A stretch of 24,584 nt of DNA from a virus: positions 1-24,584 of IMG/VR virus record IMGVR_UViG_3300021335_000088. One strand, 5' to 3'. The translations under genes were made by a program, and so were the position numbers. The notes beneath the pieces were generated by a model. The model did no database searches. It worked only from the letters and a program-made list of their open reading frames with translations, and was not told the DNA's origin. Of this stretch, positions 3,935 to 20,560 are shown one piece after another (positions within the stretch are counted from its first letter, which is position 1; every line of letters starts with the position of its first letter).

Positions 3935-4378
3935 ATGAAAGAATCAGTTAAAGTCCTACAAGAGTGTGCCGAACTTCAAGTGAAGAAAGGCAATGACTAT
4001 CAAAACCCGCATTCGCGGATCAAGCAAGTTGATTATTACCCACAAGGTGTTGCAACGTTGCTTGACATTGTACATGCTAAGATGCTTCGCATGCGATCAG
4101 TTATCGAAGCTATGCAATCAGATCCAAACTATAATCCTAATTTTGAATCACTCGAAGATTCAGCAAAAGATATGATCAACTATTGTTCATTCATCGTTGA
4201 GTATTCTCGTGGTAAAATGCAAGGTCAAGATCCTAATAATGATTTTCTCAATCGTCCTAAAACTAAAGTAAAATACACAGAACCTGGACCTGACGAAGTA
4301 TATCCAGCAAGAGAAGATGTACCTGCTGAACTATGGGGTAAAAACATTAAGGAAGCTCTAGCAGATGATGAATGTTAA
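3935..4378 (+). CDS. Nmad1/DUF1599-like protein
   Basis: 147 aa. The conserved block is the N-terminal 95 residues: KKGNDYQNP near 17-25, then TLLDIVHAKMLRMRSVIEA and SLEDSAKDMINYCSFIVEY. This resembles PF07659 (DUF1599, 'nucleotide modification associated domain 1'), a helical domain common in phages and without a proven activity. The C-terminal 50 residues are low complexity and Pro/Glu rich. The name fits the surrounding base-modification genes, but the family assignment is from pattern memory only. The predicted promoter start lies about 3 nt before the ATG. An AGG 6 nt upstream could serve read-through transcripts. It overlaps the next gene by 14 nt. Confidence 0.6.
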   Translation: MKESVKVLQECAELQVKKGNDYQNPHSRIKQVDYYPQGVATLLDIVHAKMLRMRSVIEAMQSDPNYNPNFESLEDSAKDMINYCSFIVEYSRGKMQGQDPNNDFLNRPKTKVKYTEPGPDEVYPAREDVPAELWGKNIKEALADDEC

Positions 4379-5021
4379 AGACGTTAGAAACTTTTTCGTT
4401 AATGAATTAAAAAACGAAAGATTTACTATAGATAAAACAGGACAAAAAACAATCGAAATGATTGGTGCGTCCTTTATCGCAGATGAAGAATCCATCTTTG
4501 GTAAACCGAATCAGGAGTATATTCAAAATGAAATCGATTGGTACCTCTCCGGATCAACAAACATTAATGACATTTATGGAAATGATCGATCACCTCCAGC
4601 AGCTTGGCAGTACTCTGCAAATCAGCATGGAGAAATCAACTCAAACTATGGATACCTCATCTTTGACGATAAGTGGTTTCGTCAATATGATAATGTCGTT
4701 AACGAGCTAACACATAATCCTGACTCGCGTCGGGCATGCATGATCTATAATAGACCAAGCATTTGGGTAGAATATTCTGAAAATGGCAAAAACGATTTTA
4801 TCTGTACTAATGCTGTTACTTATTATATTCGTAATGATAAATTACAGTCAGTGGTCCAAATGCGTTCAAACGATGTCGTGTTCGGATACAAGAATGACTA
4901 TGCTTGGCAACAATATGTTTTAGATCATGTTGCTGAAGATGTTGGTGTAGAAGCAGGACAGATTACATGGCAAGTTCAAAACTTGCACGTTTACGAAAGG
5001 CATTTTGATCTTGTCAAGTAA
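4365..5021 (+). CDS. 42: dCMP hydroxymethylase, T4 gp42-like
   Basis: 218 aa, thymidylate-synthase fold. It transfers a one-carbon unit from methylene-tetrahydrofolate to dCMP to give 5-hydroxymethyl-dCMP. Resemblance to T4 gp42 as I remember it runs the whole length (TIEMIGASFIADE at 29-41, GEINSNYG at 89-96, NPDSRR at 118-123, MRSNDVVFG at 166-174). The catalytic Cys is C147 (FICTNA). The residue equivalent to E. coli TS Asn177 is Asp178 (G-Y-K-N-D-Y-A). That Asp is known from T4 gp42 (D179) to select dCMP over dUMP. The presence of a separate ThyX downstream supports the view that this is not the thymidylate synthase. AAGGAAG lies 9 nt before the first of two ATGs. It overlaps the deaminase by about 17 nt. 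The product predicts hydroxymethylcytosine in phage DNA. Confidence 0.9.
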   Translation: MMNVKDVRNFFVNELKNERFTIDKTGQKTIEMIGASFIADEESIFGKPNQEYIQNEIDWYLSGSTNINDIYGNDRSPPAAWQYSANQHGEINSNYGYLIFDDKWFRQYDNVVNELTHNPDSRRACMIYNRPSIWVEYSENGKNDFICTNAVTYYIRNDKLQSVVQMRSNDVVFGYKNDYAWQQYVLDHVAEDVGVEAGQITWQVQNLHVYERHFDLVK

Positions 5022-5472
5022 ATGGGACCTTCGATATTTAAGTTTAGCCGAGAACATCGCTTCTTGGTCTAAAGATCCTTCAACACAAATCGGCGCAATC
5101 GCGGTTGGGGCAAAGGGACAAGTATTGTCTCAGGGTTACAATGGATTTCCTCGTGGTATTGAAGATAGAGTATCATATTATGAAGATCGCGAAACTAAAT
5201 ATAAGTATGTCGTTCATGCTGAAATGAATGTCATATACAACGCTACATATCATGGTATTTGCCTTGAAGGTAGTACCTTATATGTTACAGGGTTGCCAGT
5301 CTGCAGTGACTGTGCAAAAGGTGTAATACAAGTCGGCATAAAAAGAGTCGTTATGAAAGAACAAAATATACCGTTAAAATGGGTAGAATCATGGAAAACG
5401 ACTGCTGGTATGTTCGATCAAGCAAAAATAAATTGGGAGTTTATAAATGTCACAAGTTCAAGAACGTCATGA
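5005..5472 (+). CDS. cd: dCMP deaminase
   Basis: 155 aa zinc-dependent deoxycytidylate deaminase, dCMP to dUMP. The zinc/catalytic motif is H71-A-E73 with PVC100-S-D-C103, and SKDPSTQIGA (22-31) is the usual N-terminal signature. It follows the hydroxymethylase, and together they divide dCMP between hm-dCMP and dUMP, the latter being substrate for the ThyX encoded at 15638. The start is a TTG at 5005 or an in-frame TTG at 5011. GAAAGG at 4995-5000 leaves 4 or 10 nt respectively, so the exact start is open. The 3' end overlaps the next small gene. Confidence 0.9.
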   Translation: MILSSKWDLRYLSLAENIASWSKDPSTQIGAIAVGAKGQVLSQGYNGFPRGIEDRVSYYEDRETKYKYVVHAEMNVIYNATYHGICLEGSTLYVTGLPVCSDCAKGVIQVGIKRVVMKEQNIPLKWVESWKTTAGMFDQAKINWEFINVTSSRTS

Positions 5473-5656
5473 AGATTACATGAAGCGACGTCTCCATGAA
5501 GAAGGTATTGGTGTTAATACAGAATATACCAATATGAGACTTACAAAAGAAATTGAAGAACTTAAACATAGAATTAAAACACTTGAAACTGATATGGCAT
5601 ATACAGCATACGCTACCAGCCCAGAAGAACAACGGATATATGATTTAAAAAAATGA
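5447..5656 (+). CDS. Small coiled-coil protein, unknown function
   Basis: 69 aa, highly charged. Residues about 28-50 form a heptad-like helix (LTKEIEELKHRIKTLETDM), suggesting a short coiled coil or dimer. No catalytic motif is recognised. GGAG lies about 8 nt upstream of the ATG. The gene overlaps the deaminase end by 26 nt and the next gene by 4 nt (ATGA), so it sits in the same translationally coupled operon. Confidence 0.7.
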   Translation: MSQVQERHEDYMKRRLHEEGIGVNTEYTNMRLTKEIEELKHRIKTLETDMAYTAYATSPEEQRIYDLKK

Positions 5657-6828
5657 GTTTAGAAACAACTGAATATTATGATGACTTTATAGATTACTTT
5701 CATAAAGCGAAAGAACAACAAGTAAAGTGTAATGTTTCAGAAGAAGCTCCATATGGGATGATTCCCCATATGGAGTCTGAAATGAATGATGACTTAATGC
5801 ACTGGATTGAACTATACGATGTTGTCGAACGTAAGTATGCTGGCTTCTCACAAATCATGAATGATTGCTGGTCTGGTTGGACCGAAGATCATCCATATTG
5901 GAAGAAGATGAAAGCTGGTTTACATTGTGATCAACGTAAAGTAGTAGCAGAAAACTGGACCGGTAAACATAAAGATTTTGATTTGCCAGAATGGTTATAT
6001 CTTTTTATCCTACATCGTGTATGTGGTTCTGCTATTAACTATGCTACTAAACCATCTGGCTATCATAACACACTATTGTTTACACTTCATAAGGCTAAAA
6101 CTATTGAAGATATGATTTGGCATATGAAGAGACATACTACGCCATTTTATACTTCAGTTGGTTATCAGTTTCCTAAGTTTCCAAAAAGACCAGAAGGTTC
6201 AGACTACAAAAGAAGTGGTGATTATTACCTAGCAGAATTTGCTCCTCGTCTTGCAAGAGAAATGGCAGAGTGGTTGCAAACTTCGAATGAAAGAAAGGAT
6301 CTTCGAGAAATCGGAGAATATATGGGTAAGTGGAATGAACGAAACGGCCTCAATCGTTATACTTTTCAATATGCTGCAGTGGTTGCCGATATTTGTGATT
6401 GGTATCCACAGTTTGTTAACAAAGAATCACATTTCTATTATGGTACTAATGCTGTTGAGTGTATATCTTATTTGGCTAAGCCAACTGTAAAGATGAAGAA
6501 AGAGATATTTCTTGACAAAGTAATGGATAAGATTTATGAAGACACAAAGTCGTATCCTTATAATGCAGAAGATGTGTGTTGTGATTATATTCGATGGGTT
6601 GAAAACTATATGAGACCTGGCGCGCATTACTCGCATGTAGATATGGATAATGTCTGGTCGTCAAGTAAAATTAAAAATCATCCGTTCGGTCGACAAAAAG
6701 CAATGTTAGAATTAGGTTTAGTTGAAACATTCAATAGACGTAAGCATCATCCTTCAGATGCCACAGTATTAAACGAAGTCGGTATTTCAGTGAAAGAATA
6801 TAAAGATAGATGCGCCACGCTACACTAG
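5653..6828 (+). CDS. Putative DNA base hypermodification protein (first of pair)
   Basis: 391 aa, soluble, rich in Trp, Tyr and His. The best-defined block is near residues 117-145: a helix LYLFILHRVCGSAINYA followed by KPSGYHNTLL, then KTIEDMIWHMK. A C-terminal block has HPFGRQKAMLELGLVE near 344-359. I do not recognise it with certainty. The layout (between a dCMP hydroxymethylase and a PLP enzyme, paired with a second helical protein) recalls the predicted alpha-glutamyl/putrescinyl-thymine pyrophosphorylase and amino acid:DNA transferase (ADDT) families of phage thymine hypermodification. This assignment is inference. A perfect 11-bp inverted repeat lies inside the gene at 5747-5775. The gene overlaps the previous one by 4 nt and the next by 19 nt. 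Confidence 0.8.
   Translation: MSLETTEYYDDFIDYFHKAKEQQVKCNVSEEAPYGMIPHMESEMNDDLMHWIELYDVVERKYAGFSQIMNDCWSGWTEDHPYWKKMKAGLHCDQRKVVAENWTGKHKDFDLPEWLYLFILHRVCGSAINYATKPSGYHNTLLFTLHKAKTIEDMIWHMKRHTTPFYTSVGYQFPKFPKRPEGSDYKRSGDYYLAEFAPRLAREMAEWLQTSNERKDLREIGEYMGKWNERNGLNRYTFQYAAVVADICDWYPQFVNKESHFYYGTNAVECISYLAKPTVKMKKEIFLDKVMDKIYEDTKSYPYNAEDVCCDYIRWVENYMRPGAHYSHVDMDNVWSSSKIKNHPFGRQKAMLELGLVETFNRRKHHPSDATVLNEVGISVKEYKDRCATLH
5747..5775 (+). repeat. Perfect 11-bp inverted repeat within coding sequence
   Basis: CTCCATATGGG (5747-5757) and CCCATATGGAG (5765-5775) are exact reverse complements separated by 7 nt. Each arm contains the palindrome CCATATGG. The repeat lies about 95 nt into the 5653 gene. 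In RNA it would form a stable hairpin early in the message; no T-tract follows, so it is not a classic terminator. Confidence 0.85.
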
Positions 6829-7796
6829 AAGCATTCATTGATCAAGATGATAATTCTATTACGTATAAAAATACAATAGAACCTATATTAAAAAAAGGTA
6901 AAGTCACTAATCATTTATTAGAAAAATGGCCTCTCGAAGAAAGAATACAAAAGTTCTTCGAGTTTTGTCGTGCGTATGATGTAAGAGAAGAACCTTTACT
7001 TAAATCTAATCCACAACAATTTTCTCACCGACTGCATTGGGATGAGATGCCATATGTAGAAGAAATGAAAAATGAAAAAGATATAGAAAAGCTTTTACAT
7101 CATACTATTGTTTGGTCATTTAGTAACGAACATTGGTTAACATTTAGGGCATTAAGAGATCATGGTGTTGATGCTATGAGAAATAGATTTGTTACAGAAC
7201 GTCATGCACGATCTGACTTATTTCAAATTTATTATCCTAAAGGAACTAAGGTAAAAGAATGGCTATGCGAAACGCCACAGCGAATCGCTAAAGATTGTTA
7301 TCCGCTTCTGCAATCAAACCGTCCATTAAAAATGATGGAGTTGGCATCTAAACTCGAGAAACACACGAAAGAAAAATATGGATTTAGAAATGTTATGTAC
7401 CCTTATAAGAACTTGTCTCGTCACATCGCCATGGCAAGACCAGATCTCGTCGATCCAGAATCGTGGGTTACACCAGGAACATTATCATTCTATGGACTAT
7501 GGCAAATATTTGGTGGAAAAAACCTCTTCGGCAAAACAAAATTCGAATTAGATGAAAATGGTAACTACGAGCCAACAAATGATCAAGCAAAATTACTTGT
7601 AGAACAATTTAATACTTTAGCTTCGCATAAAGATAATCCTATGGAACGACAATATAATATCAATATCGAAGATAAAGCTTGTATGTGGTGTAAACATTTA
7701 TTTATTAAACACGGCGTTAAATCTACTACAAAGAAGATTCCTTATGAATGGATTTATCCAAGAAGTTTTTCTCTAAAAAAGAGTTTACATTCCTAG
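6810..7796 (+). CDS. Putative DNA base hypermodification protein (second of pair)
   Basis: 328 aa. The conserved-looking C-terminal half contains YPYKNLSRHIAMARP, then VDPESWVTPGT...YGLWQIFGG near 216-240, then EDKACMWCKHLF, HGVKS and IPYEWIYP. It is Trp/His/Lys rich with no known motif that I can name firmly. The style matches the helical glycosylase-like or ADDT-like proteins predicted in phage hypermodification operons (inference). The N-terminus reads TLEAFI at residues 5-10, resembling the C-terminal TLEAFF of the phage polymerase and of the 8705 protein. The start at 6810 overlaps the upstream gene by 19 nt with little Shine-Dalgarno sequence, so coupling is likely. A promoter begins at its 3' end. 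Confidence 0.8.
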   Translation: MRHATLEAFIDQDDNSITYKNTIEPILKKGKVTNHLLEKWPLEERIQKFFEFCRAYDVREEPLLKSNPQQFSHRLHWDEMPYVEEMKNEKDIEKLLHHTIVWSFSNEHWLTFRALRDHGVDAMRNRFVTERHARSDLFQIYYPKGTKVKEWLCETPQRIAKDCYPLLQSNRPLKMMELASKLEKHTKEKYGFRNVMYPYKNLSRHIAMARPDLVDPESWVTPGTLSFYGLWQIFGGKNLFGKTKFELDENGNYEPTNDQAKLLVEQFNTLASHKDNPMERQYNINIEDKACMWCKHLFIKHGVKSTTKKIPYEWIYPRSFSLKKSLHS

Positions 7797-7812
7797 TAAA
7801 ATTTGGTATAAT
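7784..7812 (+). promoter_or_regulatory. Extended -10 promoter TTTACA-17-TGGTATAAT
   Basis: The -35 is TTTACA (7784-7789), the spacer 17 bp, and the -10 TATAAT (7807-7812) with TGG before it. The predicted transcription start is about 7819, which is the A of the next gene's ATG. No Shine-Dalgarno sequence is present. This predicts a leaderless mRNA for the PLP enzyme. Confidence 0.72.
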
Positions 7813-7818
7813 AGACCT

Positions 7819-8763
7819 ATGTCACATGATAAACACGTAATCGATAATGTAAATAAAGACATAGAAGTCTTAAGTCTTGATGGGATTCAAACTCGTCAAG
7901 AAGCAAAGGAATATTATCTTAAATTAGCTGAAGGTTGGGAAGATCCTAATCCACAACCAGTTATAAAGGAATATGATGGTGTACGAGTTGTTCGAGACGA
8001 TCTCATTACAGGTAGTAAAGTACGAGGAGGAGATTTACTTATTTCTCGTATTAATCAATCTCGTCTCGTTTATGTTCAGCCTCGCACTGGTTTGGCTGGA
8101 GTCTCGCTCTTGGATGTGGCAAAGAGACACAATAAAAGCGTTAGGCTATTCATGCCCTCATCGAAAAGAATTAGTCATCATCAAGCTTGCTGTATCGAGC
8201 GCGGTGCTGAGTATGATTTCTATCGTGTGGCTGCTATGCCTAACCTCAATAGGATAGCAAATAAATGGGCACAAGACAACGACGATGCGTTTTTTATCCC
8301 GTTAGGTTTAAAGCACGAACTCGTTACGGCAGGTATCGTAAAGGTAGCATCAGCAATTCCAGCACCAAAAGAAGTATGGACCGTAGTATCTACAGGCGTA
8401 CTTCATCGCGCCTTGCAGATCGCTTGGCCAAAAGCTGAGTTTCATGCTGTTGCAGTTGCACGTAATATGAAAGAAGGTGAAGTTGGTCATAGTAATATTA
8501 TTTCTGCACCTGAACCTTTTACTAAAGAAATTAAAGAAGGACTGCCACCCTTCCCTAGTATAAACACATATGATGGAAAAGCTTGGCGATATATCCCTAA
8601 AAATTCTGGTAGGGACGTCTTATTTTGGAATGTAGGTACCGAACCGGTACTAAACGATGATACTATATACGATAGAGTTGATTCATATAGAAAGTGGAGC
8701 AAAGATGAAAAAAGTACTATTGACAGGTCTAGGACCAATCTCGAACAAAATCCATTCGCATAA
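7819..8763 (+). CDS. PLP-dependent enzyme, fold type II (ACC deaminase/cysteine synthase-like)
   Basis: 314 aa. VRDDLITGSKVRGGD (57-71) matches the PLP-lysine segment of fold-type II enzymes (RDDL..G.K.R), making K67 the likely Schiff-base lysine. A phosphate-binding-like TG..G segment follows (RTGLAGVSLLDVAKRH), then a Rossmann strand VRLFMPS, and later FIPLGLKHELVTAGIVK. Such enzymes carry out beta-elimination, deamination or decarboxylation-like steps on amino acids. PLP enzymes are known or predicted in phage thymine hypermodification operons, acting on the amino-acid-decorated base. That role here is inferred from the neighbours. No Shine-Dalgarno sequence is seen, and the promoter start coincides with the ATG. 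The 3' end overlaps the next gene by 59 nt. Confidence 0.78.
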   Translation: MSHDKHVIDNVNKDIEVLSLDGIQTRQEAKEYYLKLAEGWEDPNPQPVIKEYDGVRVVRDDLITGSKVRGGDLLISRINQSRLVYVQPRTGLAGVSLLDVAKRHNKSVRLFMPSSKRISHHQACCIERGAEYDFYRVAAMPNLNRIANKWAQDNDDAFFIPLGLKHELVTAGIVKVASAIPAPKEVWTVVSTGVLHRALQIAWPKAEFHAVAVARNMKEGEVGHSNIISAPEPFTKEIKEGLPPFPSINTYDGKAWRYIPKNSGRDVLFWNVGTEPVLNDDTIYDRVDSYRKWSKDEKSTIDRSRTNLEQNPFA

Positions 8764-9754
8764 AGCTGCACAAGCTATTATCTATGCAGATCAGTTAAAA
8801 CAAGCTGGTATGGATGTTACAATCAATTTAGTCAGTAATAAGATTACTGATTATAGTCCATTTGATGAAATTTATTTTTATCATGGATCCGATTGGAGTG
8901 GAAATCTGAATCTCTTCGGCGGTATTGAAGCATATGCTAATACAGCATATGTGTCCGCTTTGTCACATTTTAGTGGTAAAATTAAATCAATCATAGTTGA
9001 CTTTCCTGATTATGCTTCTATGTTTCTTGACCGTTTAGCTAAAAAAGATATGACATGGAATACAGTACATTGGGAAAATTTGCGTAAGCTGCAGATAGAA
9101 GCTGAGATAGTTGATCCTAACATGATTAAAAGATATCGTAAGATTGCCTTTGGTGATAGTCATGCAATCTGCATGTACCGGCCCGGGTGGGAGAATGTAT
9201 CAGTACCTTTCTCTACACTACATGGTTCTATCAATAAAGGATTTGAGACATTTGTACCAGAAAATGGTGAACCAATGAGAGAAGATAGATATGACGAAAT
9301 CGAAACATATTTTGGTAATATCGACATTCGTCATCACCTTTGTAGGTTTGATAATCCTATCGAAGAGGCACATAAATTAGCTGATAGATATGGAGAAGAA
9401 GTAGAACGCATGCGTAAATTATTTAAAGCAAATATTACCGCATGGGAACCATTACCAATTGAAGATGAAGCTCGCAAAATTCCAAAAACTGGTTGGTATA
9501 AAGGTACACCATTTTATGGAAAATGGCAACAACGTGATGAAGTTCGTAATGCTTTTACCGAAAGATTAAAGTCACATACTCAAGTTTATAATTGGGTTGA
9601 ACCACTATATAATCCTATAGGTCAGTTAGGTTATGAGGCTATGGAAAAACCACAATCAGTTCACTTATCAAGAGCATCTTATCCGCATTGGCAAGGTACA
9701 GAATGGACAGAAGAACAAGAAGAGGTATCAACACTTGAAGCATTCTTTGGATAA
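8705..9754 (+). CDS. SGNH/GDSL-like protein with clamp-binding-type tail
   Basis: 349 aa from the ATG at 8705. GGAG at 8696-8699 leaves 5 nt; an in-frame ATG at 8657 is less likely. The N-terminal half looks alpha/beta (MKKVLLTGLGP..., then an FDEIYFYHG strand). IAFGDSHAICMY resembles SGNH block I (GDS), GNIDIRHHLCR could be the block III Asn region, and VHLS near the C-terminus could supply the block V His. SGNH proteins are usually esterases or acyltransferases; the substrate is unknown here. The protein ends STLEAFFG, nearly identical to the last residues of the phage DNA polymerase (NTLEAFFA), suggesting recruitment to the sliding clamp. It sits between a PLP enzyme and a radical SAM enzyme. 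The fold assignment is moderate; the gene itself is secure. Confidence 0.72.
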   Translation: MKKVLLTGLGPISNKIHSHKAAQAIIYADQLKQAGMDVTINLVSNKITDYSPFDEIYFYHGSDWSGNLNLFGGIEAYANTAYVSALSHFSGKIKSIIVDFPDYASMFLDRLAKKDMTWNTVHWENLRKLQIEAEIVDPNMIKRYRKIAFGDSHAICMYRPGWENVSVPFSTLHGSINKGFETFVPENGEPMREDRYDEIETYFGNIDIRHHLCRFDNPIEEAHKLADRYGEEVERMRKLFKANITAWEPLPIEDEARKIPKTGWYKGTPFYGKWQQRDEVRNAFTERLKSHTQVYNWVEPLYNPIGQLGYEAMEKPQSVHLSRASYPHWQGTEWTEEQEEVSTLEAFFG

Positions 9755-10943
9755 TTTTTGTATATTACCTTGGATACACGTAAATCTAAATCCTAACGGT
9801 GATATTGCGCCATGCTGTATTACCGAAGGTAATGATACTATGGGTAATATAAATGATACACCGATCGAAGAAATATGGAACTCACGCAAATACATGGAGT
9901 TGCGTAAAGAATTTCTTGATGGTAAACAACCGCGGATGTGTAAGAGATGTTTTGATAAAGAAAAAACTGGTTCAAGAAGTAACAGACAATCCACATTTGA
10001 AAAATTTCCTAATGAGATTAGTAAAGAGCGTACAACAAAAGCTGAATTAAAGTTGAAGCATTGGGACTTTAGATTTAATAATCTATGCAATCTAAAATGC
10101 AGAACATGTGGACCCTATTGTAGTTCTTCTTGGATTCCAGACGCCAAAAAATTAAATTATAAGAATGATTTTCCTAAAATAATAAAAAATAAAAACACTT
10201 ACGATCTCATTGATAAAAATATCGATAACGTCGAGAGAATTTATTTTGCTGGTGGTGAACCTCTTTTAATGGATGAACATTGGTATATAATAAAGAAATT
10301 AGACGAGCTAGGTAGATATGATGTACGATTAGAATATAATACCAATCTTACTACTTTAAAATATAAGAATGAAAATATAATAGATTATTGGAAAAAGTGG
10401 ATTGGAAATCATCAATCTCCTGCTAGTATTGTGAACCTATGGCCAAGTATAGATGAAATAGGTGAAAGAGCAGAGATAATAAGATCAGGGACAGTTTGGA
10501 AAAAAATAGAAGATAACTTAAAAAAAGTCATCGATGCTGGAATTGATCCCCAACCATCTATAACTGTAAGCGTATTAAATGTACATAGAATACCTACAAT
10601 AGTAAATCATCTTATTGGTTTAGGAATTAGAGCAAAAAGAATATCGTATAATCTAGTTATTACACCTGAATATTATAATGTATCTGTTTTAAACGAAAAG
10701 GCAAAGCAAAAAATTAGAATTGATTTATTAAAATTTATTTTAGATACAAAAATCAAATATGGGTGGGATTATAGTCAAGGACTAGCACAAATAATGAATG
10801 AATTAAGAAAGCCCCAACGTAAAGAATTAGTTCATGCGTTTTGGGTATATTCGTGGTCTTTGGATAAAGTTCGTTCTGAAAACATATTTAATATTATTCC
10901 AGAGCTAAAAGATAATGTACAATTAGACGAGGATGTGGTATAA
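9747..10943 (+). CDS. Radical SAM protein with N-terminal twitch/SPASM-like domain
   Basis: 398 aa. The start is best placed at TTG 9747, overlapping the previous stop by 8 nt, because the conserved N-terminus begins DNFCILPWIHVNLNPNG; upstream in-frame residues look like out-of-frame translation of the preceding gene. The radical SAM cluster motif CxxxCxxC is C114-NLK-C118-RT-C121. Additional cysteines (C5, C23, C24, C65-x2-C68) resemble the auxiliary-cluster ligands of twitch-domain radical SAM proteins. FAGGEPLL is the usual GGE motif. Radical SAM enzymes are known in phage thymine hypermodification (for example in Pseudomonas phage M6), where they rearrange the base side chain; that role is inferred here. 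The last bases hold a promoter for the UvsX region. Confidence 0.88.
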   Translation: MDNFCILPWIHVNLNPNGDIAPCCITEGNDTMGNINDTPIEEIWNSRKYMELRKEFLDGKQPRMCKRCFDKEKTGSRSNRQSTFEKFPNEISKERTTKAELKLKHWDFRFNNLCNLKCRTCGPYCSSSWIPDAKKLNYKNDFPKIIKNKNTYDLIDKNIDNVERIYFAGGEPLLMDEHWYIIKKLDELGRYDVRLEYNTNLTTLKYKNENIIDYWKKWIGNHQSPASIVNLWPSIDEIGERAEIIRSGTVWKKIEDNLKKVIDAGIDPQPSITVSVLNVHRIPTIVNHLIGLGIRAKRISYNLVITPEYYNVSVLNEKAKQKIRIDLLKFILDTKIKYGWDYSQGLAQIMNELRKPQRKELVHAFWVYSWSLDKVRSENIFNIIPELKDNVQLDEDVV

Positions 10944-11136: not shown

Positions 11137-12180
11137 ATGAGTATTATGGATAAACTTAAAAAGAATAGTAAAATCAAAGAGACCGAGATTCTCGCTGATT
11201 CGAAATTCTTTAATGAAAAAGATATGGTGCCAACAGCAGTGCCTATGATGAATGTTGCATTATCTGGTTCAGTTGATGGAGGTCTAGCTCCTGGATTAAC
11301 AGTTCTAGCAGGTCCATCAAAACATTTTAAAACGTCATTTGCCCTTATCATGGCAGCAGCATATATGAAAAAATATCCTGATTCTGTTATGCTATTTTAT
11401 GATTCTGAATTTGGTTCTCCTCAGTCGTATTTTACTCAATACGATATTGATACATCTCGAGTATTGCACACACCTATTGCAAATGTTGAAGAACTAAAGT
11501 TCGATATTATTGCACAACTTGAAGCTCTTGATCGTAAAGATAAAGTTATTGTTATCATTGATTCTGTTGGCAACTTAGCGTCAAAGAAAGAATTAGATGA
11601 TGCTATTAGTGAAAAGTCTGTAGCAGATATGTCACGTGCTAAATCACTCAAAGGTTTATTTCGCATGACAACTCCATATTTGAATATGAAAGATATTCCT
11701 TTGATTGCAGTAAATCATACGTATATGGAGATTGGTTTATTTCCTAAAGCCGTTGTGTCTGGTGGTACGGGTATATATTATTCTGCAGATAATATCTGGA
11801 TTATTGGTCGTCAACAAGATAAAGTTGGTACAGAGATCAAAGGTTATCACTTTGTTATTAATGTAGAGAAGTCACGATATGTTAAAGAAAAATCTAAAAT
11901 TCCTATTTCTGTTACTTGGGATGGTGGTGTCTCCTCTTATAGCGGTTTGTTGGATGTTGCTATGTCTGGTAATTATGTTGCTAAGCCTTCTAATGGGTGG
12001 TATTGTAGGGTGGATCGTACTACTGGAGAGTTGGTGGATCCGAAAGTTCGAGAAAAAGATACACTCGCAGAGGAATTCTGGACCCCGATTCTAGAAGAGA
12101 CCGACTTCAAAGATTTTATTAAAAATAAATTTATGATTGGTGGAAATATTAGCAATGAACTTGACATTGAAGAAGCATAA
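11137..12180 (+). CDS. uvsX: UvsX, RecA-like recombinase
   Basis: 347 aa strand-exchange ATPase, resembling T4 UvsX throughout. The N-terminus has SKFFNEKDMVPT...PMMNVALSG. The Walker A is the divergent UvsX form GPSKHFKTS (59-67), and Walker B is VIVIIDSVGNLAS with D142. AVNHTYMEIG and VSGGTGIYYSADNIWIIG match the DNA-binding core, and VEKSRYVKEKSK follows. It is about 40 residues shorter than T4 UvsX, lacking most of the acidic C-terminal tail, which in recombinases tunes DNA binding. AGGAG lies about 6 nt before the ATG. Likely driven by the promoter at 10916-10944. It overlaps the next gene by about 26 nt. Confidence 0.95.
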   Translation: MSIMDKLKKNSKIKETEILADSKFFNEKDMVPTAVPMMNVALSGSVDGGLAPGLTVLAGPSKHFKTSFALIMAAAYMKKYPDSVMLFYDSEFGSPQSYFTQYDIDTSRVLHTPIANVEELKFDIIAQLEALDRKDKVIVIIDSVGNLASKKELDDAISEKSVADMSRAKSLKGLFRMTTPYLNMKDIPLIAVNHTYMEIGLFPKAVVSGGTGIYYSADNIWIIGRQQDKVGTEIKGYHFVINVEKSRYVKEKSKIPISVTWDGGVSSYSGLLDVAMSGNYVAKPSNGWYCRVDRTTGELVDPKVREKDTLAEEFWTPILEETDFKDFIKNKFMIGGNISNELDIEEA

Positions 12181-12472
12181 AGAAAACGTTACTTATCAAT
12201 TAGTTCCTGGTCCAGATCATGAACAGAATTGGCATATACGTATCACTGATGGCATTTTTAATGAAACAGTTGTACAAATAGGATCTATATCATATAATGA
12301 TATAGGTGAAGACGTATTAAATTATAATTTTTTCATAGTTGAAACACCTGATAGCGAATTAACTATTGAGAACAAAGATCTCCAACAAGAAGTTGGAGAA
12401 ATTCTTGAAGAAATTATTAGAGAAGCCATTGAAAGCGGAGATGGTTCTATACAATTTAAGGAAAAAGAATGA
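12155..12472 (+). CDS. Conserved phage protein of unknown function next to uvsX
   Basis: 105 aa from the ATG at 12155 (MNLTLKKHKENVTYQLVPG); an in-frame ATG at 12137 is an alternative. The sequence predicts a beta-rich N-terminal part (WHIRITDGIFNETVVQIGSISYN) and an acidic helical C-terminus. I recall similar short proteins beside uvsX in T4-like marine phages, without known function. It overlaps uvsX by 26 nt and the kinase gene by 4 nt. A weaker TGTACA-16-TATAAT pair at 12271-12298 lies inside it, upstream of the kinase. Confidence 0.75.
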   Translation: MNLTLKKHKENVTYQLVPGPDHEQNWHIRITDGIFNETVVQIGSISYNDIGEDVLNYNFFIVETPDSELTIENKDLQQEVGEILEEIIREAIESGDGSIQFKEKE

Positions 12473-12924
12473 AGATTTTAATTTGCGGATTGCCTGGTAG
12501 TGGTAAGACTACTCTTGCAGAACCATTGGCAGAATTACTTGGTGCAGTATGGATCAATGCCGATCAAGTTAGAACAAAATACGATGATTGGGATTTTACA
12601 CCTGAAGGCCGTATTCGTCAAGCACAGCGTATGAGGTATCTTTCAGACGGTGTTGTAATGGCAGGTAAAGTTGCTGTAACCGACTTCGTAGCACCAACAG
12701 AAAAGGCACGTGAAGCCTTTGATGCTGACTATGTAATTTGGATGGATACTGTAAATAAAAGCAAATCTGTAAATGGACCAGCAGCTGAAGGTAGTACATT
12801 CGAACAGACTGATAAGATGTTTGAGAAGCCTACAGACTGTAATTATCACGTTGCAGATTGGTTTGAAGATACTCATGCACAATTATTACCAATTATTAAA
12901 AATTATATGGAAAGGAATAAGTAA
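12469..12924 (+). CDS. P-loop kinase, adenylylsulfate-kinase-like
   Basis: 151 aa. The Walker A is GLPGSGKT (7-14), followed by NADQVR and a DWDFTPEGRIRQAQRM segment, VAVTDFVAPT near 69-78, and FDADYVIWMDT. This layout resembles APS kinase (CysC) family proteins but is shorter than the usual 180-200 aa. It could phosphorylate a small nucleotide or a sulfated nucleotide. Since a hydroxymethyl-dCMP pathway also needs a kinase (T4 gp1), an hm-dCMP kinase role is possible but speculative, as gp1 is not of this subfamily. ATGA overlap with the upstream gene. It is followed, after a small gene, by a nucleotidyltransferase, which may act in the same pathway. Confidence 0.78.
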   Translation: MKILICGLPGSGKTTLAEPLAELLGAVWINADQVRTKYDDWDFTPEGRIRQAQRMRYLSDGVVMAGKVAVTDFVAPTEKAREAFDADYVIWMDTVNKSKSVNGPAAEGSTFEQTDKMFEKPTDCNYHVADWFEDTHAQLLPIIKNYMERNK

Positions 12925-13145
12925 TGGAAGTACTACTTCTAATTGCAGCTGGAGTGGCAGCTCATCAATACCTAAAAGAACCTGATATTGTAATCCCACC
13001 GTCAGAGCATAAAGTGATGGTACAAAATGAACAGGTATGGATTCCTGATGATAACTCTCTAGCTATGATTGATTGGACAAAGGCAGGTAATTTTGTTCAG
13101 ACCTCTCATCAGCATAATGTTGTATGGGTGATGATCAGTGAGTAA
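12924..13145 (+). CDS. Small protein with hydrophobic N-terminus, unknown
   Basis: 73 aa. Residues 1-15 (MEVLLLIAAGVAAHQ) are hydrophobic and could be a short signal anchor; the rest is soluble with several Trp and His. The family is unknown. It overlaps the kinase stop by one base (TAATG) and the next gene by 8 nt, with AAGG about 6 nt before the ATG. The tight packing between kinase and nucleotidyltransferase suggests co-expression. Confidence 0.65.
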   Translation: MEVLLLIAAGVAAHQYLKEPDIVIPPSEHKVMVQNEQVWIPDDNSLAMIDWTKAGNFVQTSHQHNVVWVMISE

Positions 13146-13557
13146 ATTTGACCCATTAAATCCAACAGTTCAAATGCTCGGCAGATGGCAACCATGGCAT
13201 GATGGACATACAGAGTTATTCAAACGTTGTTATGCCATGACTGGTCAAGTTGCTATCATGGTTCGTCAAGTGCCAGAAAAAAGAGAAGCAAATTCTCGAG
13301 TACCTGGTCAAGATGATAATCCATTCGATATTGAAGCTGTGACAGAAAATATTGCTGCATCTTTATTCATGCATGGGTTTACAATCGATGAAGATTATGT
13401 TATAATGGTAGTACCAAACATTGTTGACATTGGTTATGGTCGAGGTGTTGGGTATACATTTACAGAGCACGATCTTGGTAAAGCGATTCACGACATCTCT
13501 GCTACCAAGATTCGAGAACAGATGAGAGAAGAAGGTAAACTTGAAAGCAAATCTTGA
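13138..13557 (+). CDS. HxGH-motif nucleotidyltransferase (cytidylyltransferase/NMNAT-like)
   Basis: 139 aa. GRWQPWHDGH (15-24) contains the catalytic HxGH motif of the nucleotidyltransferase superfamily, and ISATKIR (120-126) is the matching C-terminal nucleotide-binding motif. Relatives adenylate NMN (NAD synthesis), sulfate or phosphopantetheine, or use CTP. The length is near archaeal-type NMNAT (about 170), so NAD salvage is one possibility; the pairing with an APS-kinase-like gene suggests another. The substrate cannot be decided. The start is GTG at 13138, overlapping the upstream gene by 8 nt. A promoter-like element (13378-13406) lies inside it, upstream of the helicase gene. Confidence 0.8.
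   Translation: MSKFDPLNPTVQMLGRWQPWHDGHTELFKRCYAMTGQVAIMVRQVPEKREANSRVPGQDDNPFDIEAVTENIAASLFMHGFTIDEDYVIMVVPNIVDIGYGRGVGYTFTEHDLGKAIHDISATKIREQMREEGKLESKS
13378..13406 (+). promoter_or_regulatory. Internal promoter candidate TTTACA-17-TGTTATAAT
   Basis: The -35 is TTTACA (13378-13383), the -10 TATAAT (13401-13406), and TGT precedes the -10. Spacing is exactly 17 bp, as in the intergenic promoters. It lies inside the nucleotidyltransferase gene about 135 bp before the helicase start, and could give the helicase its own transcript. Chance occurrence in AT-rich coding DNA is possible. Confidence 0.4.
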
Positions 13558-19477: not shown

Positions 19478-20560
19478 ATGGCACCACGTAATCATAGCAA
19501 TTGGACTAAAACACCAAAGGTAGAATATATTAGTAGTGAATGCTATAATGATCATAGCATCTATCTACGTGAACAAGAAGAAATCTTTTCAAAGGTGTGG
19601 GTTCCTATGTGCCACATCAGTGAGATGTATAATAAAGATGATTTTCGTACTACACAAATCGCAGGTCAAAACGTAATTGCATGGAATACTGGTGATGGCG
19701 TGAAAGCAGCATATAATTTACAAATGCAATCTCCAGCTGGCAATCAAGTTGCTATCGATAGAGGCTGTGGTAAAAAACTACACTGTGAAGTCAAACATGG
19801 TGGCATGATATGGGTGACACTAGATCCTAATCCTACGCAGTCTGTAGATGAATGGACAGCAGGTGCATTCGATTGTATTGCTGATGCTATTGATACCGAA
19901 GAAATGGAAGTTTTTCATTACCATAAAGCAGTTATAGATACTAATTATAAATTATGGCATGATACTAACAGCGAGTTCTATCACGACTTTATGCACTACT
20001 TTAATCGTGTGTCAGGATTTAACGATGAATATTTCGCTAGAAAGAATATCCCTTTTGATAATGGTCATGTTAATGTTAGCAGCTTTACTGTTAACTATGA
20101 AGAGTATGACGGATTTGAAGATCGCGGGGAACTATCTTTTCCCAATCTGCCGCCCAACCAGTGGTACATGGTCGACCTCTTTCCAGGATTCAACTTTAAC
20201 CTTCGCGGGAGTGCATATCGTTCAGACTCAGTAACACCGCTTGGACCTAATAAAGTACTCATTGAATTCCGCGGTTACGGTTTACGTAAGGATACACCTG
20301 AAGAAAGACAAACAAGAATCAAACACCACAATTCTATTTGGGGACCATTCGGTCGTAACCTACATGAAGATTTGATTGGTGTTGCAGGTCAAGGTACCAC
20401 AATGAGAGAAGGTACCGAATCAAGAAACATTCTACATGGCCGCCATGAAAATTCTACAATTCATGATGAAGTTGGGATGAGACATTATTACACAGCCTGG
20501 GGTAACATGTTAGGTGTTAACCCAGCTAATCCAATGAATAAATATGAAATGGCAGCTTAA
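19478..20560 (+). CDS. Rieske-type oxygenase homologue lacking the Rieske cluster motif
   Basis: 360 aa. The C-terminal catalytic domain of ring-hydroxylating oxygenase alpha subunits is recognisable: NYKLWHDTNSEFYHDFMH near 162-179 (family pattern NWKxxxENxxExYHxxxxH), with HEDLIGVAGQG near 302-312 as the third-ligand region. The His-His spacing is three intervening residues, one fewer than usual. The N-terminal domain starts as in the family (EIFSKVWVPMCHISE...), but CxH...CxxH, which holds the [2Fe-2S] cluster, is absent. The segment between AYNLQ and GGMIWVTLDP is only about 30 residues, where 70-80 is usual. It may need another electron route or have lost redox function. AAAGGAG sits 6 nt before the ATG, right after the tmRNA. 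The substrate is unknown. Confidence 0.7.
   Translation: MAPRNHSNWTKTPKVEYISSECYNDHSIYLREQEEIFSKVWVPMCHISEMYNKDDFRTTQIAGQNVIAWNTGDGVKAAYNLQMQSPAGNQVAIDRGCGKKLHCEVKHGGMIWVTLDPNPTQSVDEWTAGAFDCIADAIDTEEMEVFHYHKAVIDTNYKLWHDTNSEFYHDFMHYFNRVSGFNDEYFARKNIPFDNGHVNVSSFTVNYEEYDGFEDRGELSFPNLPPNQWYMVDLFPGFNFNLRGSAYRSDSVTPLGPNKVLIEFRGYGLRKDTPEERQTRIKHHNSIWGPFGRNLHEDLIGVAGQGTTMREGTESRNILHGRHENSTIHDEVGMRHYYTAWGNMLGVNPANPMNKYEMAA

Follow-up and report, generated by a model that had tools for sequence, protein, structure and literature searches.

A conserved four-gene module of uncultured T4-like phages predicted to decorate 5-hydroxymethylcytosine

Four genes that follow a gp42-type dCMP hydroxymethylase in an uncultured T4-like virus probably attach an amino-acid-derived group to modified cytosine. 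Their products are in part related to the enzymes with which other phages decorate thymine. The genes, encoding the helical proteins X1 and X2, a PLP enzyme, and an SGNH-fold protein, form a conserved module that is common among such viruses. They were studied in a window of 24,584 nucleotides (IMG/VR record IMGVR_UViG_3300021335_000088, positions 1 to 24,584). It is likely that they constitute a cytosine-hypermodification cassette, for which a post-replicative, amino-acid-derived group on 5hmC is predicted. The chances are about even for the fuller proposal that 5hmC is first aminoacylated and then decarboxylated to an amine-bearing cytosine by X1 and X2 (previously unrecognised helical families), a PLP enzyme of the M6 type, and an SGNH protein that docks on the clamp and acts on nascent DNA, that this route is widespread and uncharacterised in uncultured T4-like phages, and that in several groups of phages hypermodification enzymes are held at the replisome by tails shared with the polymerase.

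The gene run (3935–10943) is tightly packed on the + strand, and every gene of the first-pass annotation was located in it. A family B DNA polymerase (gp43-like; 5–2530, +), named from its sequence and synteny with the T4-like phage ime09, lies upstream, and the UvsX recombinase (11137–12180, +), named from sequence, position, and the same synteny, forms the downstream border of the cassette and is kept with the module in relatives. The module thus sits between gene 42 and uvsX in the order gp43-gp42-[module]-uvsX, a slot that holds a glucosyltransferase in ime09 and a sugar cassette in RB69. Of the non-redundant contigs, 54 continue for 4.5 kb or more beyond X1, and 42 of these have all four genes; because X1 recurs with X2, the PLP enzyme, and the SGNH protein in this way, the gene run is far beyond chance. 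X1 is the constant gene; X2 is sometimes missing, which counts against the cassette reading. In a wider set of 86 non-redundant related loci, a C5-cytosine-methylase-like gene is found near the module in 11. A small coiled-coil-like protein (5447–5656, +), whose conservation is limited to close relatives, precedes X1.

The PLP enzyme (7819–8763, +) is, judged by its sequence, a member of the M6 gp52 family. It matches PHROG 7093 (E 7e-39), in agreement with the first-pass assignment to fold-type II PLP enzymes, and aligns with the M6-like PLP family in a profile-profile comparison (hhalign, 100%, E 4e-45). Its predicted catalytic Lys67 aligns with the M6 sequence SKIRG, with Lys in 64/64. M6 gp52 belongs to the known thymidine-hypermodification cluster, where it lies between ADDT and radical SAM genes; gp51 is the ADDT and gp55 carries HMUDK_hel.

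X1 (5653–6828, +), the first of two helical proteins left unassigned in the first-pass annotation, is indeed predicted to be all-helical (AlphaFold, pLDDT 86). Its fold matched two BFVD proteins (E 1.8e-39 and 3.4e-4) that carry the annotation 'Amino acid:DNA transferase domain-containing' and, more weakly than these ADDT-annotated proteins, the 5-hmdU kinases of PhiW-14 and SP10 (prob 0.91–0.92, E about 0.1); the PDB gave no match. From the model, X1 is predicted to be a DNA-base transferase or activating enzyme with an ADDT / 5-hmdU-kinase-like fold. Its partner X2 (6810–7796, +) shows a weak match to X1 (hhalign, P 0.002–0.008) and has a clamp-tail-like peptide, ATLEAFI, at its N-terminus. 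Several searches count against the cassette reading. With HMMER, neither Pfam ADDT (PF18724) nor the Pfam 5-hmdU DNA kinase (PF18723, HMUDK_hel) matched X1, X2, or their 43 X1 and 21 X2 relatives. HMM-HMM comparisons of X1 and X2 with deep alignments of 5-hmdU kinases (70 sequences) and ADDT (52 sequences) stayed at noise level, and neither protein was found in isolate phages. Between the two reference alignments themselves there is a match (P 8.5e-5). When both proteins and the same relatives were scanned with Pfam and PHROG, nothing useful was returned, leaving X2 with no family match. Matches to unrelated families, which the first-pass annotation had said would tell against it, were sought for X1 and X2; the reading survived, with the X1 link being purely one of fold comparison. 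A Walker A motif is present in 0/71 X1 and likewise 0/70 5-hmdU kinases, and a loose form in 13/67 X2. A search of bacterial genomes for X1 found only six MAG contigs.

The 8705 product (8705–9754, +) has a predicted SGNH hydrolase superfamily fold with conserved catalytic residues, making it a candidate acyl/aminoacyl hydrolase or transferase. Its AlphaFold model (pLDDT 88.6) matched a sialate O-acetylesterase in the PDB (Foldseek, E 2.5e-5, prob 1.00). G150, S152, H153, D207, R209, and H320 are invariant in 81/81 SGNH relatives, S152 being the GDS serine and H320 the C-terminal His, and N205 of the GxN-type block is present in 66/81. The earlier description of an SGNH-like protein is thus upheld by predicted fold and invariant active-site residues. 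Weak hints of a beta-glucosyltransferase identity (Pfam E 0.18, PHROG E 0.014, T4 beta-GT fold E 2e-3) were passed over in favour of SGNH because the SGNH matches are stronger and the SGNH catalytic residues are invariant. In Aeromonas phage 44RR, a relative of this protein is fused to HMUDK_hel, a 5-hmdU-kinase-type helical domain, and in another contig (L112) the SGNH family gene adjoins HMUDK_hel. Asp-type hydroxymethylases are also encoded by 44RR, phage 25, and the HMUDK_hel contig L115.

The 8705 protein ends in STLEAFFG, a peptide shared with the end of the phage DNA polymerase, NTLEAFFA. Such polymerase-like C-terminal tails occur in 24/61 SGNH proteins and 1/487 others (polymerases excluded). 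Because the two tails correspond, tethering of the 8705 protein to the sliding clamp through a putative clamp-binding-like tail is suggested. In T4, the gp45 clamp is a binding partner of alpha-GT (PMC13216743).

These features would also suit another chemistry, in which X1/X2 and the SGNH protein place a small group, for example acyl or phosphoryl, on 5hmC and the PLP enzyme makes the donor in solution. Esterases and acyltransferases are the usual activities of SGNH enzymes, and the best fold matches of the 8705 product are O-acetylesterases. Clamp-like tail peptides are carried by the SGNH protein and X2 and are absent from the PLP enzyme, whose siphophage relatives adjoin ParB/sulfiredoxin and DNA-methylase genes. 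Among loci with enough sequence, three have X1 and X2 and two have X1 and the SGNH gene, all without PLP. Non-sugar decoration of hmC has a precedent in 5-carbamoyloxymethylcytosine (PMC8670742). However, the PLP enzyme shares its family with a protein flanked by ADDT and radical SAM genes, and the X1 fold matches bear the ADDT name, so a group of other than amino-acid origin is considered unlikely.

The base that enters the pathway is indicated by the hydroxymethylase (4365–5021, +), which is assigned from its sequence as a gp42-type dCMP hydroxymethylase making 5-hydroxymethyl-dCMP. It matches PF00303 (Thymidylat_synt, E 2e-21), and its D178 occupies the specificity position, E. coli TS position 177, which is Asp in 49/49 aligned relatives and Asn in the dUMP-type enzyme of M6; the active-site Cys is present in 52/52. 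The Asp/Asn position separates modified-cytosine from unmodified contigs (PMC8670742). The enzyme is also 54% identical to T4-like gp42, and the first-pass view of it as cytosine-specific stands, as does that of the adjoining dCMP deaminase (5005–5472, +; PF00383 E 6e-19, phrog_174 E 1e-41). The deaminase and an NTP-hydrolase-like gene (3935–4378, +; DUF1599 / 'nucleotide modification associated domain 1'-like, PHROG 1485 E 7e-12, DUF1599 E 0.025, below the cut-off) are usual companions of the module. The NTP-hydrolase-like gene is a usual neighbour of the hydroxymethylase, and in 26 of 35 loci with full context it is no more than 8 kb from X1.

It is improbable that the target is instead thymine or uracil (5hmU), as in M6, ViI, and PhiW-14, with the cytosine hydroxymethylase a bystander. 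For all three families (PLP, kinase, and ADDT), the characterised relatives have, to our knowledge, substrates derived from 5hmU. The 5hmdU route is described in PMC6449724. A dCMP-type hydroxymethylase was not detected in five X1-X2 records (L052, L178, L179, L184, and L051), some of which are fragments; this, too, counts against the cassette reading. Among contigs lacking the hydroxymethylase, none has a C5-methylase as an alternative hydroxymethyl source, and a search for Tet/JBP in that role matched nowhere at all and is hence uninformative. Against a 5hmU target, an Asp-type hydroxymethylase lies within 8 kb of X1 in 27 of the 35 full-context loci, the module occupies the hmC-glucosyltransferase slot, no dUMP-type hydroxymethylase was seen in the X1-carrying phages, and ThyX is also encoded in the window. 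A precursor of 5-hydroxy-dC rather than 5-hydroxymethyl-dC is highly improbable. The RB69 gp42 homologue, encoded in the same genomic slot, makes 5-hydroxy-dCMP (PMC13390438), but the 4365 product is only 28% identical to RB69 ORF048 and has gp42-type sequence around its active site. Equally hard to credit is that these are unrelated accessory or host-takeover genes beside gp42 by chance: the role of the helical proteins is a prediction, but linkage is kept across the 86 loci, where the genes are reshuffled as a unit, and the fold and family links all indicate DNA base modification.

The radical SAM enzyme (9750–10943, +) has an N-terminal SPASM domain (PF13186 E 1e-14; PF04055 E 2e-8). Its ORF starts inside 8705, and the conserved part begins near 9750. 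The first-pass annotation was right about the enzyme itself, but its place in the pathway was ruled out as a core part because the gene is found in only 2/86 related loci and has no meaningful similarity to M6 gp53 (E 0.41). The gene is best classed as accessory, peripheral to the core module, and the lack of a radical SAM partner of the M6 type is a point against the cassette reading.

Several known systems resemble the proposed one in part. The thymidine hypermodification pathway of Pseudomonas phage M6 comprises HMUDK gp55, ADDT gp51, PLP gp52, radical SAM gp53, and TS-like gp58. Both systems share the PLP family, and in both an enzyme of the TS family has helical enzymes that act on DNA as neighbours, with the modified nucleotide made first and tailored on DNA. 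M6 starts from U/T (Asn), whereas the present system starts from C (Asp); X1 and X2 stand in place of a recognisable ADDT and kinase, and the module lacks a homologous radical SAM enzyme, has an extra SGNH enzyme, and is set within a replication block of T4-like type. T4 glucosylation of 5hmC (gp42 with alpha/beta-GT) shares the gp42-type hydroxymethylase, the slot between 43/42 and uvsX, and possibly clamp docking, but here four non-sugar enzymes replace the glucosyltransferase. In Synechococcus phage S-B43, CmoA/CmoX/CmoY form 5-glycylcarboxymethylcytosine (5gcxmC; PMC12783734), with an amino acid at C5 of cytosine in phage DNA as predicted here; that route uses carboxy-SAM and an ATP-dependent ligase and has no hydroxymethylase, PLP, or helical enzymes. 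The hmC carbamoyltransferase of environmental phages (PMC8670742) likewise adds a non-sugar group, near an Asp-type TS and dCMP deaminase, but acts as a single enzyme without PLP, X1, X2, or SGNH. ORF233 of 44RR (795 aa), the SGNH-HMUDK_hel fusion, shares the SGNH family and an Asp-type gp42 homologue, but no X1, X2, or PLP gene is near it. In the literature consulted, the first-pass statement that no characterised system is known holds for the present route and not for amino-acid-decorated cytosine in general. What would be new is the hydroxymethylase/X1/X2/PLP/SGNH route; amino-acid-decorated cytosine itself is already known by another route, 5gcxmC.

In the proposed pathway, the gp42-type enzyme, by its strong homology, would convert dCMP to 5-hydroxymethyl-dCMP, which would enter phage DNA as 5hmC. 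X1, by its fold, and perhaps X2 would be helical enzymes similar to ADDT / 5-hmdU kinases that work on DNA and activate the 5-hydroxymethyl group on DNA, replace it with an amino acid, or both. The PLP enzyme may then act at the alpha-carbon of the base-bound amino acid, most simply by a decarboxylation that leaves an amine. The SGNH protein, held on the sliding clamp by its polymerase-type C-terminal peptide, may add or trim an acyl-type group on nascent DNA. The module would take the place of the T-even hmC glucosyltransferase and presumably shield the DNA from host nucleases. The cassette reading is preferred because of the uniform Asp of the hydroxymethylases, their proximity to X1, and their presence in 44RR, phage 25, and L115; the PLP and X1 matches; the fusion or adjacency of SGNH and HMUDK_hel; the recurrence of the module in a glucosyltransferase/sugar slot; the SGNH tail with its alpha-GT-gp45 precedent; and the C5-methylase-like gene. 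The PLP, X1, and SGNH evidence also bears out the first-pass link to the thymine-hypermodification toolkit, and with the specificity of the hydroxymethylase it supports amino-acid-derived decoration of 5hmC as a predicted pathway.

If the reading is true, the on-DNA amino-acid chemistry of thymine would extend to cytosine in common uncultured T4-like phages, and a new nucleoside would be predicted in viral DNA. Four enzyme families would be named for new DNA chemistry, with use as DNA-labelling tools. The presence of a polymerase-like tail may be a rule of general use, and one that can be tested, for recognising phage DNA-modifying enzymes. The T-even sugar would be one of several exchangeable decorations in a single genomic slot. 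The reading would also account for a possible escape of such phages from restriction, CRISPR, and the 5hmC-targeting glycosylases.

Across its 24.6 kb, the viral record carries a T4-like phage replication block. Genes for a family B polymerase (5–2530), a MazG-like protein, an unassigned product, an NTP-hydrolase-like protein, a dCMP hydroxymethylase, a dCMP deaminase, and a 69-residue protein are followed by X1 (5653–6828), X2 (6810–7796), a PLP enzyme (7819–8763), an SGNH-like protein (8705–9754), a radical SAM gene, and UvsX, with a DnaB-like helicase further on. The T4-like phage ime09 has the order gp43, imm, gp42, DNA glucosyltransferase, uvsX, and gp41, and a sugar cassette fills the corresponding slot in RB69. 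Thus, the X1-X2-PLP-SGNH module occupies the T-even position for enzymes that decorate modified cytosine. Elsewhere, the window encodes a ring-hydroxylating (Rieske-type) oxygenase alpha subunit (19478–20560; PF00848, E 2e-7), here within a phage fragment, and an APS-kinase-like P-loop protein (12469–12924) and a cytidylyltransferase-like protein (13138–13557) that co-occur in close relatives only.

The hydroxymethylase is of the cytosine type by sequence. Its specificity position for dCMP over dUMP (E. coli TS 177) is Asp178, and Asp is found in 49/49 relatives, whereas the enzyme of Pseudomonas phage M6, which hypermodifies thymidine, has Asn. In a metagenome study, this position was mostly Asp in modified-cytosine contigs and Asn in unmodified ones (PMC8670742). 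RB69-type phages make 5-hydroxy-dCMP (PMC13390438); within the RB69 cassette, ORF048 is the TS-family member. The window enzyme likely produces 5-hydroxymethyl-dCMP, because it carries Asp178 and is 54% identical to T4-like gp42 versus 28% to ORF048.

The PLP enzyme belongs to PHROG 7093 (E 7e-39), which includes M6 gp52. The M6 cluster comprises gp51 (ADDT), gp52 (PLP enzyme), gp53 (radical SAM), gp55 (HMUDK_hel, a 5-hmdU kinase family), and gp58 (TS); ViI and PhiW-14 have no PHROG 7093 member. Profile-profile comparison of the window-type and M6-type families gave 100% probability (E 4e-45, 230 columns), with unrelated families at noise level, and the predicted PLP lysine is kept in 64/64 sequences. 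In Erythrobacter and Microcystis siphophages (L005, L006, L007), PLP relatives are found near the terminase, inside or next to DNA-methylase and ParB/sulfiredoxin genes, perhaps another DNA-modification context.

X1 and X2 have no Pfam match, as single proteins or as families, and neither was found in isolate phages. The predicted X1 structure (pLDDT 86) has no match in the PDB; it matches two predicted viral “Amino acid:DNA transferase domain-containing” proteins, one 62% identical (E 1.8e-39) and the other 11% (E 3.4e-4), and with less certainty the PhiW-14 and SP10 5-hmdU kinases (probability 0.91–0.92, E about 0.1). X1 lacks a P-loop, as do the 5-hmdU kinases. The model reasonably places X1 in the ADDT/5-hmdU-kinase fold group; X2, weakly similar to X1 (P 0.002–0.008), is tentatively placed there.

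The predicted structure of the 8705–9754 product (pLDDT 88.6) has an SGNH hydrolase fold, its model matching a sialate O-acetylesterase (E 2.5e-5, probability 1.00), and the active-site residues Gly150, Ser152, His153, Asp207, Arg209, and His320 are invariant among 81 relatives. In Aeromonas phage 44RR, the homologue is part of a 795-residue protein: it makes up the N-terminal half, and the C-terminal half gives a weak HMUDK_hel score (E 0.004, below cut-off). On contig L112, the gene adjoining the SGNH homologue encodes a clear HMUDK_hel protein (E 2e-9), and 44RR, phage 25, and the HMUDK_hel contig L115 encode Asp-type hydroxymethylases. Therefore, the SGNH family associates with DNA-base kinases in hmC-type phages. 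44RR is cultured, so its DNA modification could be measured. The 44RR fusion (ORF233; L002:7001–9388) adjoins a sodium/glucose-symporter-like gene, and an inositol-1-phosphate-synthase-like gene (L112:1501–2784), recognised by eye, adjoins the SGNH/HMUDK_hel pair on that contig.

Viral-contig scans returned more than 500 X1 and 400 X2 relatives. Among 86 non-redundant fetched loci, 54 include 4.5 kb or more of sequence downstream of X1, and 42 of these have X2, PLP, and SGNH genes; seven lack only X2, three have X2 only, and two SGNH only. PLP and SGNH genes swap order among loci, pointing to a functional unit and away from frozen synteny. A hydroxymethylase lies within 8 kb in 27/35 full-context loci. 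A radical SAM gene occurs in 2/86 loci, and that of the window is unrelated to M6's. Recurrent neighbours include a C5-cytosine-methylase-like gene (11/86 loci) and a small UDG-superfamily-like gene close to X1 (31/86, including L229:6481–7008); the UDG profile scored E 5e-4, below cut-off, in one member of the latter family and gave no match in L084. An HhH-GPD glycosylase-like gene recurs in the X1-X2-only group, immediately upstream of X1 (L051:7166–7963, L040:710–1522, L085:3967–4740), with no PLP or SGNH gene in the available sequence.

Five X1-X2 records (L052, L178, L179, L184, L051), most with PLP and SGNH genes, have no detected dCMP-type hydroxymethylase and no C5-methylase; L052 encodes a canonical Asn-type TS. 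Either a divergent hydroxymethylase was overlooked, or this clade makes the handle another way. A candidate LOG-like gene, recognised by its GGGPGIMAA motif, lies between X2 and PLP in members of the clade (L178:8020–8688, L179:8017–8691, L190:7968–8687).

The window polymerase ends in [10 protein letters not shown], the SGNH protein in VSTLEAFFG, and T4-like gp43 in ASLDFLFG. The pattern [ST]L[DE]x[FL][FILM], scored in the last 14 residues across related loci, is present in 16/25 polymerases, 24/61 SGNH proteins, and 1/487 proteins from the rest of the module and the replication genes (P below 1e-22 by Fisher's test, on sequences that are not independent); the X2 N-terminus bears a similar peptide. 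ADDT and kinase C-termini likewise resemble their own polymerase's in ViI (RVNLLSMM/SVNLLDRL/SVNLMSLL) and PhiW-14 (LGAFFV/LGSFFR). T4 alpha-GT binds the gp45 clamp (PMC13216743). The simplest reading of these peptides is that they would dock the enzymes on the sliding clamp, directing modification to nascent DNA. A 400-residue C5-cytosine-methylase-like protein encoded near the SGNH gene also ends in the motif (L030:12354–13559, L029:7574–8779, L218, L235, L238; the Pfam check covered L030 and L054).

In the M6 pathway, a kinase acts first, followed by glycine transfer, radical SAM isomerisation, and PLP decarboxylation. In the window, the phage DNA would contain 5hmC, X1/X2 may activate its hydroxymethyl group and/or attach an amino acid to it, the PLP enzyme would act on the base-bound amino acid, probably by decarboxylation, and the SGNH protein, at the clamp, may add or trim an acyl-type group. 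Unlike M6, the module lacks a radical SAM step, so the amino-acid-derived group is expected to remain O- or N-linked. On hmC, glucose and carbamoyl are other known decorations. Phage cytosine bearing an amino acid is already known, by way of carboxymethylcytosine (PMC12783734). No pathway that couples a gp42-type hydroxymethylase with the M6-type toolkit came up in the part of the literature that was searched. X1 and X2 are two enzyme families with unrecognised roles, and the polymerase-like tails of hypermodification enzymes in the window, ViI, PhiW-14, and 44RR could be a general clamp tag.
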